From: Caldifarciminota bacterium
Lineage (GTDB): Bacteria > SDB-A
Assembly: GCA_016929715.1 (NCBI GenBank)
Contig: JAFGIG010000109.1
Span: 1 to 45,630 of the forward strand
Direction of reading: 5' to 3'
DNA length: 45,630 bases
Part shown: in pieces, positions 7,245-31,761 of the stretch
Layout: the number at the start of each line of letters is the position of its first letter
Numbering within the stretch: the stretch's first letter is position 1
Position numbers and translations under genes: made by a program
The notes under the pieces: model-generated
What the model saw: the letters and a program-made list of their open reading frames with translations, nothing else
Database searches by the model: none
Told to the model about the DNA's origin: nothing

Positions 7245-8347
7245 CCATTATCTCCGATTTTTATTTTTCTTTCAGAATTACTGTAAACCGTGAGTAAGTC
7301 TTCTTCAATAGAGAAAACCTTTTTTCTGATTAAGAGAGGGTGTTTTTCCAAAGTGAATTCCCCCTCTATCATTTTCAGTCCTTCGCCGAGAAAAAAAGGC
7401 GAAGTGAAATGGAATATCCTGTCAAAAAGTTTAGAATTGTATAAATACGACAGTAAAGTAGGTCCTCCCTCTACCAGCAGGGAAAAAACAAAGTATTTGC
7501 TGTAGAGTATGTCCAGTATTTCCGGAAAGGCGAATTTTTTCTCTTCCAGAAACTCTGTCCTCGGCATGCCCTTTTCGACTGAAGAGAACAAAACGTAATT
7601 TTCGTCCTTAAAAACATTGCTTTCGCGAGGTATTCTTCCGTGTCTGTCGAGGACAACCCTGAGGGGGTCTTTATGTTTTTTTTGGCCGGAAGTCAAATTA
7701 GGGTCGTCCTCGAGGACTGTGTTTGTTCCGACGGCGACAGCTGAATGGGATGATCGGAGTTTTCGCCCGAAAGCCCTTGCGGCATTTCCCGTAATCCATT
7801 TTGACACGCCGTTTCTATCACGGACGAAACCGTCAGCTGTGGAAGCGGCTTTCAGGCTTATGAAAGGCCTTTTATAGAGACGGGCGATAAAATATTTCTC
7901 ATTCAGTTCAAAAGCCTCTTCAGCGCATACACCTGAGATGACCTCAATTCCGGCCTTTTTCAATTCTTCTGAACCTTTCCCGCAGACCAGTTCATTGGGG
8001 TCTTGCAGGGCATAAACCACTTTTTTCACTTTTGCTTTTTTTATTATTTCGGTGCACGGCGGAGTCCTGCCGTAATGGCAGCACGGTTCGAGATTGACAT
8101 AAAGAGTCGAACCCGCCGCCTCTCTTCCGGCTTTTTCAAGAGCGGCTCTTTCCGCGTGCGGTTTTCCGCAGCCCATGTGAACGGCTTTAGAGACGATTTT
8201 GTCTTTTTTTACAACAAGGCAGGCAACGGCAGGATTCGGAAGGTTTCTGTCTTTCCTTGTCTTTGCAGCTTTCAGAGCTTTCTTCATGAAAATTATGTCG
8301 AAAGGATTTTTCACGGATACATTATCGCAAATACAGGCAAAATTCAC
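7229..8347 (-). CDS. ribD: Bifunctional pyrimidine deaminase/reductase RibD
   Basis: Two-domain riboflavin enzyme of up to 372 residues. The deaminase half shows the zinc site HAERAALEKAG and EPCCHYGRTPPC. The reductase half (from about residue 160) shows LKAASTADGFVRDRNGVSKWITG and VEGGPTLLSYL. The start is uncertain: GTG at 8347 or GTG at 8314 (giving MKNPFDIIFMKKAL), neither with a clear Shine-Dalgarno. The gene lies 27 bp after the small secreted protein gene. No FMN riboswitch was recognised upstream of it or of the run. Confidence 0.93.
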   Translation of the reverse strand: MNFACICDNVSVKNPFDIIFMKKALKAAKTRKDRNLPNPAVACLVVKKDKIVSKAVHMGCGKPHAERAALEKAGREAAGSTLYVNLEPCCHYGRTPPCTEIIKKAKVKKVVYALQDPNELVCGKGSEELKKAGIEVISGVCAEEAFELNEKYFIARLYKRPFISLKAASTADGFVRDRNGVSKWITGNAARAFGRKLRSSHSAVAVGTNTVLEDDPNLTSGQKKHKDPLRVVLDRHGRIPRESNVFKDENYVLFSSVEKGMPRTEFLEEKKFAFPEILDILYSKYFVFSLLVEGGPTLLSYLYNSKLFDRIFHFTSPFFLGEGLKMIEGEFTLEKHPLLIRKKVFSIEEDLLTVYSNSERKIKIGDNGCLQA

Positions 8348-8698: not shown

Positions 8699-9459
8699 TC
8701 TATTTCAACAGAATTGTTGTCAGTAAGACCGATGCTCAGCTCCCTGTTTCCAGGGTCAGTCTGATAAGCCCAGTCGAATACGATCTCTGACGGGGTCACC
8801 TGCCGAATGTATATTTTCGCGTAATTGTCAGTTCTGGTCCAAATTACGTAAACATGATTCACTATGGCTTCCGCGTCTCCGGTTGGAGACCAGCCTCCAG
8901 TTGGCGCGTAAGAAATGTCGTCAAAAGAATACGCCCAGCCCATATCCTGAATGTCTGTGCTGAGGTCTGAACATACAATATAACCAGCAGATCCGGTATA
9001 TTCATAATATATATCGCAGACCTGCGACGCAGCGTCGCAGCGCGCGTAGGATGAGAAATCCCAGCCTGCGGTTGCGGGATTCTGTGAAACGTCCGTAATG
9101 CTCGCGTAAAATCCCTGAGGGCGGGGAGTATCGTATATAAGATAATCAGTTAGAGGACCTTCTTCTCCGCAGGTGTTAACGGCGGATAAAGCGTAAAAAT
9201 ATGTTACTCCGTTGTAAACCGCGTTATCATTAAAGTATTCGAAAGGCGTCTCTGCTAAAAGTTCATAATACCCTGAAGGGCTGTGACATCTGTAAACCCT
9301 GTAAAAATCCGTTCCTGATTCAGGATTAGGAGACCACGTTAATCTTACTTGCCTGTCTCCGGTCACGGTAACTGCGTTTCTCACCATTGAAGGCCTTTTA
9401 CAGCATCCTGTAATGATGACAAGGCTTAAAGCAAACACAAATTTTAGTGATATTTTCAT
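8695..9459 (-). CDS. Fibronectin type III lipoprotein
   Basis: Predicted lipid-anchored protein of 254 residues. Lipobox IITGC near residue 18, then an FN3 domain (about 25-105) with the hallmark strands 'VRLTWSPNPESGTDFYRVYR' and 'YFYALSAVNTCGEEGP'. The remaining 145 residues look like a beta-rich surface domain of unknown role. Start chosen at ATG 9459 because GGAGGT lies 5 nt upstream; a longer frame to 9480 would run through that ribosome site. First gene of the minus-strand run to 112. The region upstream (9460-9564) is AT-rich, with the palindrome GCATATAATATGC at 9482-9494, but shows no convincing promoter. Confidence 0.85.
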   Translation of the reverse strand: MKISLKFVFALSLVIITGCCKRPSMVRNAVTVTGDRQVRLTWSPNPESGTDFYRVYRCHSPSGYYELLAETPFEYFNDNAVYNGVTYFYALSAVNTCGEEGPLTDYLIYDTPRPQGFYASITDVSQNPATAGWDFSSYARCDAASQVCDIYYEYTGSAGYIVCSDLSTDIQDMGWAYSFDDISYAPTGGWSPTGDAEAIVNHVYVIWTRTDNYAKIYIRQVTPSEIVFDWAYQTDPGNRELSIGLTDNNSVEIE

Positions 9460-23520: not shown

Positions 23521-24525
23521 TTAAAAACCCGCCTGAGAGGCGTCTGTTTCGCAGATCGAAACAATCCACTTCGAAGCGTTTTCGACGTCTGAAGAATCGA
23601 CCATTTCGCTCGGAGAATGAATGTATCTTGAAGGGATGGATATGCAGCCCGAATGAATTCCCGATTTTGTGACGCTGAATGCTCCGGCATCCGTTCCGCC
23701 GAAGACGAGAATTTCATTCTGAAAGGGTATGCCTCTCTTTTCGGCGGCGCTTCTCATGAAGTTCTTGACCTTTTCTGTGACGATTATGGAAGCGTCCATG
23801 ATTTTCAGTCCGGGACCCTTTCCCATTTCCACAGACATAGTGAAGCCTTTGGGAGTGTCGCCGGTTCCGGTTACGTCAACCGCGATAGCAAGGTCTGGCT
23901 CGACAGCGTAGGCTGAAGTCCTGGCGCCTCTTAAACCGACTTCCTCCTGAACCGTGAAAACGAAATAAAGATCATTTAGAGGTTTTTTTACTTTCTTCAG
24001 CGCGTCTACTATCACAGCGCATCCTATCCTGTCGTCGAAAGCTTTGGAAATCCAGCGCTGGCCGTTCACGGAAAAGCCCTGGACAAAACCCGCTTTATCG
24101 CCGATTTTGACTTTCAGAAGAGCTTCGTTTTTGTCTTTCGCGCCTATATCAATGAACATTTTCGAGAGGGGAGGAAAGCTTCCAGGCGCTATGTCCCTGA
24201 ATTCACAACCGACAACTCCCGTTGTCCCGTCTTCGAAAACCACTCTTTGGCCTGCCGTGATAATAGGATTGACGCCTCCCACTGGAGCAAACCGCAGAAA
24301 ACCTTTTTCGTCGGCGTAATTAACTATTACTCCGATTTCGTCCATGTGGGCGGCAAACATTATCTTTTTTCCAGGTCCTTTTTTTCTTGCTATTAGATTT
24401 CCGAGATTGTCAGTATGGAATTCATCCACGAAAGGCTTTATTTCGGATTCTATGGCTTTGCGTATTTTATTCTCGCTGCCGGAGGGACCATATATCTGGG
24501 TGAGTTTTTCAGCAATTTCTCTCAT
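23521..24525 (-). CDS. M42 glutamyl aminopeptidase, paralogue 1
   Basis: Cytoplasmic dimetal aminopeptidase of 334 residues, likely a tetrahedral TET dodecamer as in known M42 enzymes. Metal ligands and base are present: FAAHMDEIG, KAFDDRIGC, TVQEEVGLRGA, a 'DVTGTGD' segment and the final His in SRYIHSPSE. It is the third of three adjacent M42 genes in transcription order. Substrate preference cannot be read from sequence. Confidence 0.92.
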   Translation of the reverse strand: MREIAEKLTQIYGPSGSENKIRKAIESEIKPFVDEFHTDNLGNLIARKKGPGKKIMFAAHMDEIGVIVNYADEKGFLRFAPVGGVNPIITAGQRVVFEDGTTGVVGCEFRDIAPGSFPPLSKMFIDIGAKDKNEALLKVKIGDKAGFVQGFSVNGQRWISKAFDDRIGCAVIVDALKKVKKPLNDLYFVFTVQEEVGLRGARTSAYAVEPDLAIAVDVTGTGDTPKGFTMSVEMGKGPGLKIMDASIIVTEKVKNFMRSAAEKRGIPFQNEILVFGGTDAGAFSVTKSGIHSGCISIPSRYIHSPSEMVDSSDVENASKWIVSICETDASQAGF

Positions 24526-24538
24526 TTCTGACTCCTGT

Positions 24539-25570
24539 TCATGAAAATGATTTTACTAGGACCGGCAGGAAGGCTTCTGCGAGTTTCAAAGTTTCCCTGT
24601 AATCCGAAAGGGATGCGATTGATACAGGTGAATGAATATATCTCGAAGGGACGCTGAAAATCGCGCAAGGTATCCCTTTCCTCGAAATGTGTATTCTACC
24701 CGCGTCTGTTCCGCCTATCTGCGGCTGCTTAAACTGATATTTTATCTTTTTTTCTTTTGCCACTTTTTCTATGAGGTCAATTAATTTTCTGCTCACGAGT
24801 ATCGAATTATCTGATAAGGTGACAACAACGCCTTTTCCGAGGCACGGATAAGAAGGAAGGTCTAGATCTTCGTCTTCTTGTGGGAAATCTGCCGCTCCGG
24901 TTCCTTCGAGAACGAGAGCCGCTTTGGGATTGATTCTCTCGCCGAGAACTCCGGCTCCTCTCAGGCCGACTTCTTCCTGGACAGTGAAAACGCCGTATAG
25001 ATCAAAAGGAAAACCTTCTTTGTTTTTTAACATTTCCATCAGAAGAGAACAGCCCATCCTGTCGTCAAACGCTTTTCCTTTGACTCTGTCCTTGCTGAGA
25101 TGGCCGAAAACAGTGTCGAAAGTGATGAAATCTCCGACCGCGATTTTTTTCTGGGCAGCTTTGTCGCTTTCTGCGCCTATGTCAATTATGAGAGCTGAAA
25201 CTTCAGGTATGGAAGCGCCGGGTTTTTTTACAAGATGAGGCGGCGGCCAGCAGATAATGCCGGGCACCGATTTATCTCCTATCAAAACGCGTTTTGCAGG
25301 AAGAATTCTCGGATCGACTCCTCCGGAAGGGGTGAAATGAACAAAACCGTCTTTGGAGATGCTTTCTACAATGAAGCCTATTTCATCCATATGTGCGGTT
25401 AGGAGGATTTTCGGACCTTTTTCTTTTGCTTTTTTTATACATATCAAATTGCCTAATGAGTCTGTTTGGACGGAGTCAACATGTTCTGATATTGTGTCTT
25501 TGATGAATTTTCTGACAGCGTGTTCGTAGCCGGCTACGCCGCAGAGATTTGAAAGCTTTTCCAAATACAT
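24539..25570 (-). CDS. M42 aminopeptidase, paralogue 2
   Basis: 343 residues, same fold as its neighbours: LTAHMDEIGFIV, KAFDDRMGCSLL, TVQEEVGLRGAG and SRYIHSPVS are intact. The metal-ligand Asp seen as 'DVT' in paralogues 1 and 3 reads 'LEGTGAADFPQ', a Glu at the equivalent place, which may change metal or substrate preference. It lies 3 bp after paralogue 3 and 13 bp before paralogue 1. Confidence 0.92.
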   Translation of the reverse strand: MYLEKLSNLCGVAGYEHAVRKFIKDTISEHVDSVQTDSLGNLICIKKAKEKGPKILLTAHMDEIGFIVESISKDGFVHFTPSGGVDPRILPAKRVLIGDKSVPGIICWPPPHLVKKPGASIPEVSALIIDIGAESDKAAQKKIAVGDFITFDTVFGHLSKDRVKGKAFDDRMGCSLLMEMLKNKEGFPFDLYGVFTVQEEVGLRGAGVLGERINPKAALVLEGTGAADFPQEDEDLDLPSYPCLGKGVVVTLSDNSILVSRKLIDLIEKVAKEKKIKYQFKQPQIGGTDAGRIHISRKGIPCAIFSVPSRYIHSPVSIASLSDYRETLKLAEAFLPVLVKSFS

Positions 25571-25573
25571 CGG

Positions 25574-26647
25574 CTACTCCTTTTCTTCTTCAATGGGTTC
25601 GATTTTGTCTATATCGAGATCGGATTCTTCGAGCTGGATCACAAAAGAAGACAGTAGGCGCGCCGATCTTTCTATGTCCTTGTGGGATATGGTTTCGACA
25701 GGAGAATGCATGGATCGGACAGGAGCTGAAATGACAATGCAGGGAATTCCGTTTCTGACGAGCTGGATGGAATAAGCATCTGTTCCTGTTCCGTATGGCG
25801 CTATTTCAGTGGAGAACGGGATTTCTTCGTATTCGCAGATTTTTTTCGCTTTTGTAAAAATCCCTCTGTGGATGTTGGGTCCCACAGACAAAGTTATGCC
25901 TTTGCCGAGTTTGAAAGTCTCGGATTCTTTAAGACCGGGCATGTTGGCGTGAGTCACGTCTAGAGCCACTGCGACATCAGGGCATATTTCGTAAGCTGAG
26001 CTTTTGGCGCCGAAACCCGTCCATTCTTCCTGCAGGGTTCCTACAGCGTAAAAACTCCAATCCAATTCGACGTTTTTAAGCCTTTCGAGCGTCATTAAAA
26101 GCACGGCAAGCCCGAATCTGTCGTCTATTGACTTGCAGGAAAAGCTCTTGTTGAGAAGCTCCACGCTTTTTGCCTGGAATGAAACAAAATCTCCTACTGA
26201 GACCATTGAAAGAGTGTCTTTTTCGTCGAGTCCGGTGTCAATAAAGATATTATCCCATTGAAAAGGTTTTTTGCGCTCTTCCTGGGTCATCAGATGAGGT
26301 GGTTTTGAGCCGACCACTCCTTGTATATTGCCTTTTGAAGAGTGGATTAAAACTTCCTGTCCCGGAAGAATTGACCTGTCGACTCCCCCGACTTGATAGA
26401 CGCGAAGGTATCCGCCTTTCAGTATTTTGGTTACTATCAGACCGACTTCGTCCATATGCGCCGCGGCGAGTATTATTTTCTTGCCTTTGCCCTTCCTCAA
26501 AGCCACGGCGTTTCCAACGCGGTCTATATATGCTTCATCAGAGTAAGGCTTTGTCTCCTCGACAAACTTTTTCGCCACGGAAGATTCCATACCGGTCAAA
26601 CCCGGAATTTCACAAAAAAGCTTCAATCGTTCATTGGTTGATTTCAT
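25574..26647 (-). CDS. M42 aminopeptidase, paralogue 3
   Basis: 357 residues, the most divergent of the three. AAAHMDEVGLIV, KSIDDRFGLAVL, GTLQEEWTGFGA (Trp-Thr where the others have Val-Gly), VALDVTHAN and RSMHSPVE keep the catalytic set. It ends in an acidic tail (DLDIDKIEPIEEEKE). First M42 gene in transcription order, 22 bp after parB. Confidence 0.9.
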   Translation of the reverse strand: MKSTNERLKLFCEIPGLTGMESSVAKKFVEETKPYSDEAYIDRVGNAVALRKGKGKKIILAAAHMDEVGLIVTKILKGGYLRVYQVGGVDRSILPGQEVLIHSSKGNIQGVVGSKPPHLMTQEERKKPFQWDNIFIDTGLDEKDTLSMVSVGDFVSFQAKSVELLNKSFSCKSIDDRFGLAVLLMTLERLKNVELDWSFYAVGTLQEEWTGFGAKSSAYEICPDVAVALDVTHANMPGLKESETFKLGKGITLSVGPNIHRGIFTKAKKICEYEEIPFSTEIAPYGTGTDAYSIQLVRNGIPCIVISAPVRSMHSPVETISHKDIERSARLLSSFVIQLEESDLDIDKIEPIEEEKE

Positions 26648-28311: not shown

Positions 28312-28339
28312 TTAATAGTATTGACATTTAATATCACAA
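28312..28339 (-). promoter_or_regulatory. Candidate parA promoter, overlapping the btu promoter
   Basis: On the minus strand, TTGTGA, 16-bp spacer, TATTAA, 12 bp before the parA TTG. It shares bases 28321-28339 with the stronger plus-strand promoter, so the two could compete for RNA polymerase. Confidence 0.3.
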
Positions 28340-28349
28340 ATGATTTAAT
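28321..28349 (+). promoter_or_regulatory. Sigma-70 promoter for the cobalamin-riboswitch operon
   Basis: Perfect TTGACA, 17-bp spacer, TTTAAT (five of six). The predicted transcript start is near 28356, a few bases before the first pairing strand of the riboswitch. The placement supports both features. Confidence 0.75.
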
Positions 28350-28361
28350 TTTGCCTTAAAA

Positions 28362-28515
28362 ATTCTTCGGCGACAAGGGAAGTTCCGGAAAACGGAGACG
28401 GTCCCCGCCGCTGTGATCGCTGACGAAGGCGAGTTTAACCACTGGTAAAAAACCGGGAAGGTTCGCCCGAGAGAGAAGCGAGAGTCAGAAGACCTGGCGC
28501 TGGAGGGTTTAGAAT
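28362..28515 (+). promoter_or_regulatory. Cobalamin (B12) riboswitch aptamer
   Basis: The conserved core is readable in order: GGGAA near 28378, CCGGAAAACGGA, ACGGTCCCCGCCGCTGTGA (28399-28417), an ACCACTGG helix with its CCGG partner, and the B12 box GTCAGAAGACCTGGC at 28484-28498. P1 closes by pairing ATTCT (28362-28366) with AGAAT (28511-28515). A hairpin CACGA/TCGTG with a G-rich loop follows at 28519-28536, as expected for the element that kisses the aptamer core. It controls the downstream BtuB-like receptor and lipoprotein, presumably shutting them off when cobalamin is bound. Confidence 0.92.
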
Positions 28516-28559
28516 CGTCACGACGGGGGGTTCGTGTGCGGTGAAAGAGCCGCGTGCGG

Positions 28560-28596
28560 AACCTCTCCATGGAAAGGAGAGGTTTTTTATTTTTAA
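28560..28596 (+). terminator. Riboswitch expression-platform terminator masking the SD
   Basis: AACCTCTCC (28560-28568), a 7-nt loop, GGAGAGGTT (28576-28584), then six T, A and five T. The 3' arm contains GGAGAGG, the only plausible ribosome site for btuB, so the stem could act both as terminator and as sequester. GGAGGGTTT at 28502-28510, just inside P1 of the aptamer, can pair with 28560-28568 (one bulged base) and is a candidate antiterminator. Confidence 0.85.
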
Positions 28597-30751
28597 ATAT
28601 GTTCTCATAACAGTTTTGTTTTTTCCTGCCGCTTCTTTCTGCGCGTCTTTGACCGGAACTGTCCGCGACGCTTATGACCTTTGCCCTGTAGCAACCGTAT
28701 CTGTTTTCATAGACGGAAGACTTGCGGCTCTGACGGACGCCAACGGAAGATATTACGTGATCGGCATACAAACCGGAGAGCACACTGTTCTTTTTCAAAG
28801 GCTCGGGTTTGAAAAGCTTGAGGAAAACTTTTTTTTAGAGCACGCGGAAACCAGGGAATATTCAGTGAATATGATTCCTTCGGACTTGTCCGCCGAAGGC
28901 GTAACTGTTTGGGGCGCCTCCCGTGCTTTTCAGAACTATGAGGTCCTCAGAGAAGAGGATATAGAGAAATTTGGAAAAAAAGACATACCTGAGATACTGG
29001 AGTGTTTATCAGGGGTGACGGTTCACAGACAGAATGAAGGCGGTTTTTCAAAAATTATTCTCAGCGGGCCATCGGCGGGCAGAATATCTGTATATATTGA
29101 CGGAGTAAAAGTAAACGACCCTGCTTCAGGCGCATACGACCTGTCAGCCATACCGCTTTCAGCAGTCAAGAGTATAGTTGTTGTCAACAATCCTTCAGCC
29201 GCCGAAGAGCCCGGAGGTAGAATAATGATTTACCTCAAAGAACCGGGTTCAGGCGAAAACGAAATTTCTCTGGCAAAAGGTTCATGGGGAAAGATTTATG
29301 CCGGAACGAGATTAGGAGTAAACGGTTTTGTATTTCCGTCCCTGAACTTTTCTCTCGATTTATTTCACAGGGAATACGGCGGCGGTTATGAAGCCGAAGG
29401 CTATCCCGGAAACAGACTGCTGAACAGTGACTCGAGATCTTCGGGTGCCGTATTGAGAACAGCTTTCGGGACGCCCGTTTTTGCCGAGATTTCCGCCGCC
29501 GGAGATATCGCAGAAAGAGGAATTCCCGGTCAGGCTGACGGCGCTTTGATGACGCTGTCGAGGCTTGAAAGCGAAAATATCCTCATCTGGTCGAGAATTT
29601 CGAGAAGTTTTACGGGTAAGTTCCTATACGCAAGTTATTCTTTTTCCTATATAAAGTCAGTATATAACTGCCCTGAATATCAGCCCGTTCCGGGACAGAA
29701 CGACAGTGTCCGATTTTTCCCCGAAATGACAGAGACTCATACGGCGAACGAGGAAGTCACCTTGTTCTGTTCCATGAGATTTACAGGCGATTTCGAAATG
29801 CACCTGAAAAGCAGTCTGTCGAGACAGAAATACATGAATGAAGACTTGCTGAGGCCTTTTACAGAAAAAACCTCAGCCGAAAGAAAAGATGCAAGATTTG
29901 CAGCCGGACTGTCTTCGCAAATTTCTCTGGGGCGGTCCGCAGTCAGAATTGAAGCTGAGATGTCGCCAATATTACGGGATAGAAACAGGGCTTTTATATC
30001 TTATTCTTTTGGGTTTTCCGTGTCTAACCGGAAAGAGGATTTCTGGGCTTCAGCCGGATTGACGTATTCACTGAACATGCATTTTCCCGATTTTTCCCAG
30101 ACTCACGCCGCGGAAAATGTCTATTCAGCCGGAAACCCGGACCTCCTCCCTGAAATTTCAGGGACAGCAGGGGCTAATTTTAATATGTCTGGAGAGAAGC
30201 CTTTTGGTTGGTCTCTCTCGACATCGGCTTTTTTCAGCATCCTCGAGGAAATGATAGTATGGAGAAGAGATTTCATGGGTCGGTATCGGCCCATAAACAT
30301 GGCGAGGGCGGAGGGGACGGGTTTCGATGCGTCTTTCAAAGCGGATTTGACTGAAAATATATTCATAGGTTCAGGAATATCCCTGCAGAATGTAGTCAAC
30401 AGGACAAAGGGAGACATCAATTACGGAAACCAGATTACTTATTCCCCTCGTTACAGATTTACAGCCAGAACCGGCGTGATATTCGGCTCTCTGAGAGCCG
30501 GAATAGAATTCCGTTCAGTGGCAAGGCGATTCACGAGGGAGGCAAACACTGATCCTATAAATTATTCCCGGACATCGCTTGAACCATACAGAAATGTGGA
30601 AATATTTGCTTCTTATTCTGTGAAGTCAGGGCAATTCGATGCTGTATTCGGCTTTTCAGTGAAAAACATTTTTGACGACAGATATATGATAGTGGAACAG
30701 ATGCCGGTAGAAGGAAGAATTTTAAGCATGGAGGTGAAGGTAAAATGGTGA
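28589..30751 (+). CDS. btuB: TonB-dependent receptor, BtuB-like, probable ATT start
   Basis: Outer-membrane gated barrel of about 720 residues, predicted to import cobalamin because of the riboswitch upstream. A signal peptide (MFKYVLITVLFFPAASFCA), a carboxypeptidase-regulatory-like domain (about 22-95), a plug domain (DIPEILECLSGVTVHRQ ... VYIDGVKVND ... KSIVVVNNPSAAEE) and a long barrel ending in aromatic Trp. A GTG at 28541 would start translation upstream of the terminator and prefix 16 polar residues. ATT at 28589 lies 6 nt after GGAGAGG and gives a normal signal peptide; no ATG, GTG or TTG fits between. The propeller lipoprotein gene overlaps its stop by 7 bp. Confidence 0.88.
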   Translation: MFKYVLITVLFFPAASFCASLTGTVRDAYDLCPVATVSVFIDGRLAALTDANGRYYVIGIQTGEHTVLFQRLGFEKLEENFFLEHAETREYSVNMIPSDLSAEGVTVWGASRAFQNYEVLREEDIEKFGKKDIPEILECLSGVTVHRQNEGGFSKIILSGPSAGRISVYIDGVKVNDPASGAYDLSAIPLSAVKSIVVVNNPSAAEEPGGRIMIYLKEPGSGENEISLAKGSWGKIYAGTRLGVNGFVFPSLNFSLDLFHREYGGGYEAEGYPGNRLLNSDSRSSGAVLRTAFGTPVFAEISAAGDIAERGIPGQADGALMTLSRLESENILIWSRISRSFTGKFLYASYSFSYIKSVYNCPEYQPVPGQNDSVRFFPEMTETHTANEEVTLFCSMRFTGDFEMHLKSSLSRQKYMNEDLLRPFTEKTSAERKDARFAAGLSSQISLGRSAVRIEAEMSPILRDRNRAFISYSFGFSVSNRKEDFWASAGLTYSLNMHFPDFSQTHAAENVYSAGNPDLLPEISGTAGANFNMSGEKPFGWSLSTSAFFSILEEMIVWRRDFMGRYRPINMARAEGTGFDASFKADLTENIFIGSGISLQNVVNRTKGDINYGNQITYSPRYRFTARTGVIFGSLRAGIEFRSVARRFTREANTDPINYSRTSLEPYRNVEIFASYSVKSGQFDAVFGFSVKNIFDDRYMIVEQMPVEGRILSMEVKVKW

Positions 30752-31761
30752 GAAATACTGCCTTTTTGTTTTTTGCGTGCTGTATTTTGTTTTCCTGCTC
30801 AAAATCGTCATCACCGGCGGGTCCAGGAGCCAGCCAGCCTGCCGCGACATACCTTGTTGTATTGAACAATTTAGCTGAAACCATCTCTCTCGTAAACACA
30901 AAAGACTGGAGCGCGGCAGTCAACGCCGTCGGAACCGGACAGGTCCCGAATGACGCGGATACCGCAGGGGAATTTCTCTACATTGTTAATTCTCAGTCTT
31001 CCACGCTGATAAAATACAGGAAGACATCGTCGGGAATAGCTTTTGAAGCTTCTCTGAATTTGGGAAGCGCGACAAATCCCTTCGGACTCAGCTGTTCAAA
31101 CCAAAAAATCTACGTCTCATGTTTTATGTCCGACGAGCTCTTATGCGTCATAACGAATCCTTTTTCAGTCAGCAAAAGAATTAGTATCGGAAAATCACCA
31201 CAAGGGGTTCTTTCTCACGGCGGAAATATTTTTGTAGCCTGCACCGCTTTCGACAACTTGACGTATGATTACGGTCAAGGCTACGTCTATGTAATAAACG
31301 CGGCCGGCGATTCGGTCACAGACAGCATAAAAGTAGGGAAGAATCCGCAGGACCTGACCCTTGCGGGAGGAAAAATTCACGTTTCATGCACGGGAGACTG
31401 GGGTGTTACGGTTAACGGTAGAATATACATGATAGACCCCGCAAGCCTGGAGGTGACAGACAGCATTCTCATAGAAGGGACTCCGTCTGCTCTGTGCGCC
31501 GCCGGAGGCGATTCAGTTTATGTCGCCGCCGGGGGATGGTCCGGAAACGGAGAAATATACCTCTACAGACAAAGCGGCGAAATTCTCAGGGGTCCGGCAA
31601 ATCCGATAATAGCACCTCTTGGGGTTATGGATGTCTGTTATTTCAACGGCAAAGTTTACGCGGCGTGTTTCGCGGCAGACAGCTTGGCTCAAATAGAAGG
31701 CGATTCTGTCACGATGACCTGGAGTATCGGAGACGGTCCGCAAAATGTTATTGTTTGGTGA
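30745..31761 (+). CDS. Beta-propeller lipoprotein, BtuG-like
   Basis: 338 residues. Lipobox LFSC at about 15-18, a Ser/Pro/Gly linker, then YncE-type beta-propeller repeats: ATYLVVLNNLAETISLVN, GEFLYIVNSQSSTLIKY, QKIYVSCFMSDELLCVI, GNIFVACTAFDN, GKIHVSCTGDWG, DSVYVAAGGWSG and GKVYAACFAADSL, about seven blades. In Bacteroides, BtuG is a surface lipoprotein with a seven-bladed propeller that binds B12 and caps BtuB. Overlap with btuB and the shared riboswitch make the same role likely here. The binding residues cannot be judged by eye. Confidence 0.75.
   Translation: MVRNTAFLFFACCILFSCSKSSSPAGPGASQPAATYLVVLNNLAETISLVNTKDWSAAVNAVGTGQVPNDADTAGEFLYIVNSQSSTLIKYRKTSSGIAFEASLNLGSATNPFGLSCSNQKIYVSCFMSDELLCVITNPFSVSKRISIGKSPQGVLSHGGNIFVACTAFDNLTYDYGQGYVYVINAAGDSVTDSIKVGKNPQDLTLAGGKIHVSCTGDWGVTVNGRIYMIDPASLEVTDSILIEGTPSALCAAGGDSVYVAAGGWSGNGEIYLYRQSGEILRGPANPIIAPLGVMDVCYFNGKVYAACFAADSLAQIEGDSVTMTWSIGDGPQNVIVW

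Follow-up and report, generated by a model that had tools for sequence, protein, structure and literature searches.

The locus at 28321-31761 of the 45,630-nt stretch analyzed here (hereafter, the window, to which all positions refer; contig JAFGIG010000109.1 of a Caldifarciminota bacterium) is, with high probability, a B12-repressed operon for outer-membrane uptake of vitamin B12 (corrinoids), in which a cobalamin riboswitch precedes a BtuB-type TonB-dependent receptor and a BtuG-type propeller lipoprotein. When the two proteins were searched separately, each found its own half of the known BtuBG complex, which supports their reading as BtuB plus BtuG, and the pair is likely to work like BtuBG. 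The locus is a remote BtuBG member in an unexpected phylum. An initial annotation, made from the sequence, had suggested BtuBG-type capture outside the gut Bacteroidetes, and this agrees with our finding that BtuG and the BtuB of BtuBG complexes are the nearest folds of the propeller and the receptor, respectively.

The readable cobalamin aptamer of that annotation was recovered by cmscan as Rfam family RF00174 at 28324-28515 on the forward strand (70.8 bits, E 1.3e-15). The match exceeds the curated cut-off (31.5 bits), covers model positions 1-189, and is the sole Rfam match in the window as well as the only cobalamin riboswitch across the genome (1.98 Mb, 94.7% complete). RF00174 matches were found at the equivalent place in both congeners (G002: 71.5 bits; G001: 64 bits). 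The receptor gene follows on the same strand (28589-30751; probable start, placed by comparison of three species) and encodes Plug (4.4e-14) and barrel (2.4e-8) domains in Pfam, together with an N-terminal carboxypeptidase-regulatory-like domain. Its best NCBIfam family is TIGR01779 (TonB-B12), with a score (66.7 bits) that does not reach the equivalog cut-off (599.7 bits). All structures in this study are single-chain predictions. The top phmmer matches of the receptor in the PDB were Bacteroides BtuB 8p97/8p98, and its AlphaFold2 (AF2) model, built with ten relatives (predicted local distance difference test [pLDDT] 74.5), had as Foldseek ranks 1-6 in the PDB the BtuB chains of Bacteroides BtuBG complexes, followed by Escherichia coli BtuB. 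Ranks 1-11 were all BtuB, and the siderophore receptor XusA appeared only at rank 39.

The propeller gene (30745-31761, forward strand) shares its first 7 nt (30745-30751) with the end of the receptor gene, has GGAGGTG upstream, and encodes 338 aa with the lipobox LFSC and a lipidation candidate at Cys18; the residues SCSK at the lipobox are common to all four genomes of the phylum. An AF2 model built with four orthologues (mean pLDDT 84.1) contains 28 strands arranged as seven four-stranded blades. The annotated arrangement of a TonB receptor overlapped by a lipid-anchored, about seven-bladed propeller therefore holds in domains, overlap, lipobox, and strand count. When compared to the PDB using Foldseek, ranks 1-4 and 6-17 of the propeller were BtuG chains (16 of the 17 best matches, E 5e-15 to 2e-13), and XusB was absent from the 50 best. 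Sequence signal was also found, with phmmer matches to BtuG1 (8ptd/8ptf, 2e-5; 8blw, 1e-3), and a G-x-G-x3-N-D motif in the C-D loop of blade 1 that aligns with the same motif of BtuG1. Among 27 family members, which include the BtuG of Terrimonas ferruginea, four matched DUF5074 at E up to 0.001 and 26 had a negative net charge; that of BtuG2 is -18 (PMC10404256). In the same 27 sequences, conservation is higher in the AB and CD loops, which form one face of the propeller, than in the BC and DA loops of the opposite face (P = 0.0005), an excess that persists without Gly and Pro and is weak with the four orthologues alone (P = 0.015); because conserved CD loops are common among YVTN propellers in general and the comparison covers this family only, we treat this result as no more than supportive. 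In BtuG2, B12 is gripped by the loop Asn54-Thr64 and by two blade-5 loops (PMC10404256), and from the strand order these appear to be of the AB/CD kind. The window propeller is predicted to bind B12, sit in the outer leaflet, and dock as a lid on the receptor.

The annotation had also called for the spread of the pair across related genomes, and we found it conserved there and in a second phylum. The propeller occurs in all four genomes of the window's phylum in our set (the other three at 46-64% identity), and the whole unit was seen in three of them, with the fourth contig (4,516 bases) ending at the propeller. In both congeners, parA and a DUF2161 gene flank the unit, and its riboswitch, receptor, and propeller are arranged as in the window. 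A scan of species genomes with the propeller alignment, based on narrow peptide patterns, yielded three loci that gave the entry points into candidate division WOR-3 as well as the Terrimonas locus. In the WOR-3 phylum, propeller matches (E up to 1e-10) were present in 43 of 147 genomes, and gene order was read in 41 stretches. The order riboswitch, receptor, and propeller on one strand was found in 21 of these (one with two propellers), receptor and propeller(s) with the riboswitch not in the stretch read in six, the reversed order of riboswitch, propeller, and receptor in two (L095, L097), and riboswitch plus propeller in one. The WOR-3 operon in stretch L028 (2666-6233) consists of riboswitch, receptor, an LIC_13355-family-like lipoprotein with a type IX secretion system-type sorting tail, and two propellers; the second propeller is the longer one, lacks a lipobox, and carries a sorting-tail-like segment at its C terminus. 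Seven stretches (L084, L087, L089, L090, L092, L093, and L094) carry a close-knit group of WOR-3 lipoprotein propellers of this family with no receptor or riboswitch in the stretch read, and these are possibly stand-alone B12-binding proteins. Terrimonas ferruginea (Bacteroidota) has the order riboswitch, receptor, and propeller, the last being of BtuG1 type (1e-52 to 8ptf). A recent transfer from Bacteroidota was rejected on identity to this pair, which is just 17% for the receptor and 21% for the propeller.

The genome encodes users of B12 and the remainder of an uptake route. A cluster on a separate contig contains a CobA/BtuR-type adenosyltransferase, a periplasmic binding protein, an ATP-binding cassette (ABC) ATPase, and a BtuC-like permease (btuFDC), so that the btuCDF genes sought elsewhere in the genome by the annotation were located. 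The permease matches BtuC better than any other family, and equivalog cut-offs are not reached in the cluster. Methylmalonyl-CoA mutase (both parts) and MeaB are encoded, as is a MetH-like protein (831 aa; L022, 2394-4889) beside an MTHFR-like gene. The match of this protein to the metH model extends only to position 855 of 1182, indicating that the C-terminal reactivation domain is lacking. Corrin-ring methyltransferases were not found in the 94.7% complete genome, where the sole tetrapyrrole-methylase (PF00590) protein is the rRNA methylase RsmI, encoded in the window; the corrin ring can thus hardly be made. Given its B12-dependent enzymes and this gap in corrin synthesis, the organism should need imported B12, for which the receptor at 28589 is the obvious entry. 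Only three Plug proteins are present in the genome, and this is the only receptor with a cobalamin riboswitch. TonB C-terminal domains were also found.

Several results weigh against the assignment of the pair to BtuBG. The archaeal surface-layer YVTN protein 1l0q outscores BtuG in phmmer (1.5e-11) and holds Foldseek rank 5, with other propellers following from 1e-11. Identity between the propeller and BtuG is low, roughly 15-20%, and about 15% when counted across the structurally aligned residues; the Pfam family of BtuG (DUF5074) scores below its cut-off (20.2 vs 27.2 bits), and the BtuG2 pocket residues Trp194 and Trp272 could not be mapped onto the propeller. The segment after the lipobox (CSKSSSPAGPG) contains no acidic stretch, and the lipoprotein export signal described as exclusive to Bacteroidetes (PMC6143338) was not found after the Cys. 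In 11 of the 41 WOR-3 stretches the propeller stands alone with no receptor beside it, and btuF and btuD of the window genome fall below NCBI equivalog cut-offs. Under a strict definition of BtuBG, the locus has the fold, operon, lipobox, and riboswitch, and does not have the DUF5074 score or the export signal. Part of this evidence would fit a B12-regulated BtuB-type receptor co-transcribed with a propeller that is not a B12 lid, such as a generic YVTN lipoprotein, at the surface or in the periplasm, that has a structural role or some other one, and the rank of 1l0q by sequence, the missing Bacteroidetes-type signal, and the receptor-less WOR-3 relatives all speak for it. We regard such an explanation as unlikely, given that BtuG fills 16 of the 17 top fold ranks with unrelated propellers next at 1e-11, that gene order and riboswitch are kept in two phyla, and that the more conserved face appears to be the one that carries the B12 site in BtuG.

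A propeller lid could also serve a different ligand. XusB of the XusAB system is likewise a seven-bladed propeller lipoprotein that caps a TonB receptor, there for siderophores (PMC13142918), and architecture alone is therefore no proof that B12 is the ligand. That the window pair is XusAB-like and only incidentally under B12 control is nevertheless very improbable: a cobalamin riboswitch lies directly upstream here and at many other loci, the receptor is closest to BtuB, the XusA and XusB matches rank far down or outside the lists given above, and the genome, without corrin synthesis, has this as its only receptor with a cobalamin riboswitch. The question of origin is separate from that of function. 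An unrelated propeller family may have been recruited to BtuB in these lineages and come to act like BtuG, a scenario that overlaps with B12 uptake by a capped receptor, that gains from the low sequence identity and the ease with which propellers are recruited, and that has a parallel in XusB (DUF4374), which shows that propeller lids derive from more than one Pfam family. The annotation had left this choice between BtuBG-type and convergent capture open. The significant BtuG1 match (E 2e-5), the G-x-G-x3-N-D motif in the same loop, the DUF5074 matches within the family, the fold ranking, and a receptor that is likewise nearest to the BtuB of BtuBG complexes make convergence rather doubtful and homology with BtuG more likely, as judged from sequence and models, and the identity of about 15% leaves some room for the former.

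Returning to the operon as a probable B12-repressed BtuBG-type unit, its leader begins with a probable promoter (28321-28349, forward strand) made of TTGACA (28321-28326) and TTTAAT (28344-28349) with 17-nt spacing, a combination kept in both congeners. The promoter of the annotation thus stands as a conserved motif, and its assignment is putative: the consensus scan of the window did not list TTGACA-N17-TTTAAT because the rule requires the second hexamer to have A as its second base. The promoter falls inside the first part of the RF00174 match. Transcripts therefore probably do not include the strand that Rfam aligns as the 5' half of P1, and the aptamer at this locus possibly lacks P1.

Downstream of the aptamer, two mutually exclusive forms fold in all three species. 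The intrinsic terminator noted in the annotation was confirmed at 28558-28590 (forward strand), with an 11-pair stem (28558-28586) followed by a T-run. Terminator patterns in the window were overall not above shuffled sequences (6 found vs 4.8 expected); this hairpin is the strongest of the scan and is kept in two congeners. The candidate antiterminator (28525-28567, forward strand) would form when GGGGGGUU (28525-28532) pairs with AACCUCUC (28560-28567), which is the 5' arm of the terminator; 8 bp are possible, closing on an apical stem-loop cap. The leaders of all three congeneric genomes retain ACGACGGGGGGUUCGUG after the aptamer. In the window, the forced antiterminator reached -30.6 kcal/mol vs -34.6 kcal/mol for the terminator form, and the corresponding values in the two congeners were -28.1 and -31.7 vs -34.1 and -37.0 kcal/mol. 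When the RNA ends after the terminator 5' arm, the antiterminator is the minimum free energy form (window: -24.3 kcal/mol; three species: -24 to -25 kcal/mol), and once the 3' arm is made the terminator form is the best fold in the three species.

The 3' arm of the terminator reads GGAGAGG or GGAGGGG across the three congeneric leaders and is Shine-Dalgarno-like; in the window this arm (GGAGAGG) also serves as the probable Shine-Dalgarno of the receptor gene (AAGGAG, 28574-28579, forward strand). No obvious ATG was found for the window receptor gene, and in G001 the interval from the last stop codon to the hydrophobic stretch contains no ATG, GTG, or TTG; G002 carries an ATG inside the hairpin. 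Each of the three species has an in-frame ATT 5-9 nt past the 3' arm, followed by a signal-peptide-like hydrophobic stretch. The only standard candidate in the window, GTG at 28541, lies further upstream and was rejected as a conserved start because both congeners lack it and carry stop codons in the interval that leads from the equivalent site to the gene. On these comparisons, the receptor probably starts at a non-standard AUU at 28589, directly after the terminator T-run, and one hairpin may control transcription and translation together. The receptor genes on the reverse strand of L016 (~8700-8725) and L017 (~8215-8245) likewise seem to start with AUU after the terminator, the latter without an ATG, GTG, or TTG upstream of the signal peptide. 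Most WOR-3 receptor genes have a strong Shine-Dalgarno sequence and start 20-40 nt downstream of the aptamer, showing that their expression platform differs from that of the window.

From these elements a working scheme can be proposed. At low B12, the G-run that follows the aptamer would pair with the 5' arm of the terminator as an antiterminator, RNA polymerase would read through, and the Shine-Dalgarno sequence in the 3' arm would stay free, so that receptor and propeller might be co-produced via translational coupling. At high B12, the aptamer with its bound ligand would permit the terminator, stopping transcription and hiding the ribosome-binding site; repression by B12 is the proposed direction of switching. 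At the cell surface, the lipid-anchored propeller would capture B12 on its AB/CD-loop face and cap the BtuB-like barrel, through which B12 would move inward with TonB energy before passing to BtuF-BtuCD. The adenosyltransferase could then supply methylmalonyl-CoA mutase with coenzyme B12, and imported B12 could also serve the MetH-like methionine synthase.

Two side observations were made. Three similar M42-like peptidase genes stand in a row on the reverse strand (23521-26647), adjoining parAB, and both congeners keep them. The 4,516-base contig of G003, which groups with the window's phylum, is identical to that of the record LKUE01000251.1 ('Desulfuromonas sp. SDB'; NCBI: Desulfuromonadales), which is probably misnamed.

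BtuG was reported only from Bacteroidetes in a search of 313 human gut genomes at 1e-10 (Wexler et al. 2018; PMC6143338), and lipoprotein-capped TonB transporters seemed to be exclusive to that phylum (Abellon-Ruiz et al.; PMC10404256). The window and WOR-3 loci lie outside this range, are too divergent for the 1e-10 BLAST threshold of Wexler et al., and argue against such confinement. A likely BtuG relative with riboswitch and receptor is now found in two uncultured candidate phyla, and B12 capture by a lid seems far more widespread than published. That B12 capture proteins range more widely is not a complete surprise, since B12-binding DUF4465 proteins occur in eight clades, and 40% of one of their clusters adjoin DUF5074 propellers (PMC13398666). 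It is in our judgment an even call whether BtuBG, rather than being peculiar to Bacteroidetes or the gut, is an old system that the window's phylum has in common with Bacteroidota and WOR-3, with export that does not use the Bacteroidetes signal and, here, control by a terminator and Shine-Dalgarno-sequestering hairpin before an AUU-start gene. Confirmed B12 binding would make accounts that rest on crowding in the human gut incomplete, and would raise the question of how lineages lacking the Bacteroidetes signal bring lipoproteins to the cell surface.

Compared to known systems, the window operon can be placed by what each shares with it. To our knowledge, E. coli BtuB has no propeller partner, XusAB has no B12 riboswitch, and 1l0q has neither a TonB receptor partner nor a link to B12. 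The last resembles the window propeller as an archaeal surface-layer protein with seven YVTN blades. XusAB of Bacteroides, with ferric siderophores as ligand, resembles the window pair in having a TonB receptor capped by a propeller lipoprotein (PMC13142918). E. coli BtuB shares control by a B12 riboswitch (PMC12870672) and the receptor fold, and unlike it the window receptor has an extra N-terminal carboxypeptidase-like domain. The systems BtuB1G1, BtuB2G2, and BtuB3G3 of Bacteroides thetaiotaomicron (8blw, 8bmx, 8p97/8p98; PMC10404256, PMC6143338) share the B12 riboswitch and the neighboring genes for a receptor and a seven-bladed propeller lipoprotein. The window locus differs from them in phylum, in its 7-nt gene overlap, in having no Bacteroidetes export signal, and in a btuFDC cluster located separately, with no other B12-binding surface protein gene recognized alongside; BtuBG of B. 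thetaiotaomicron nevertheless provides the nearest structural matches for both window proteins.

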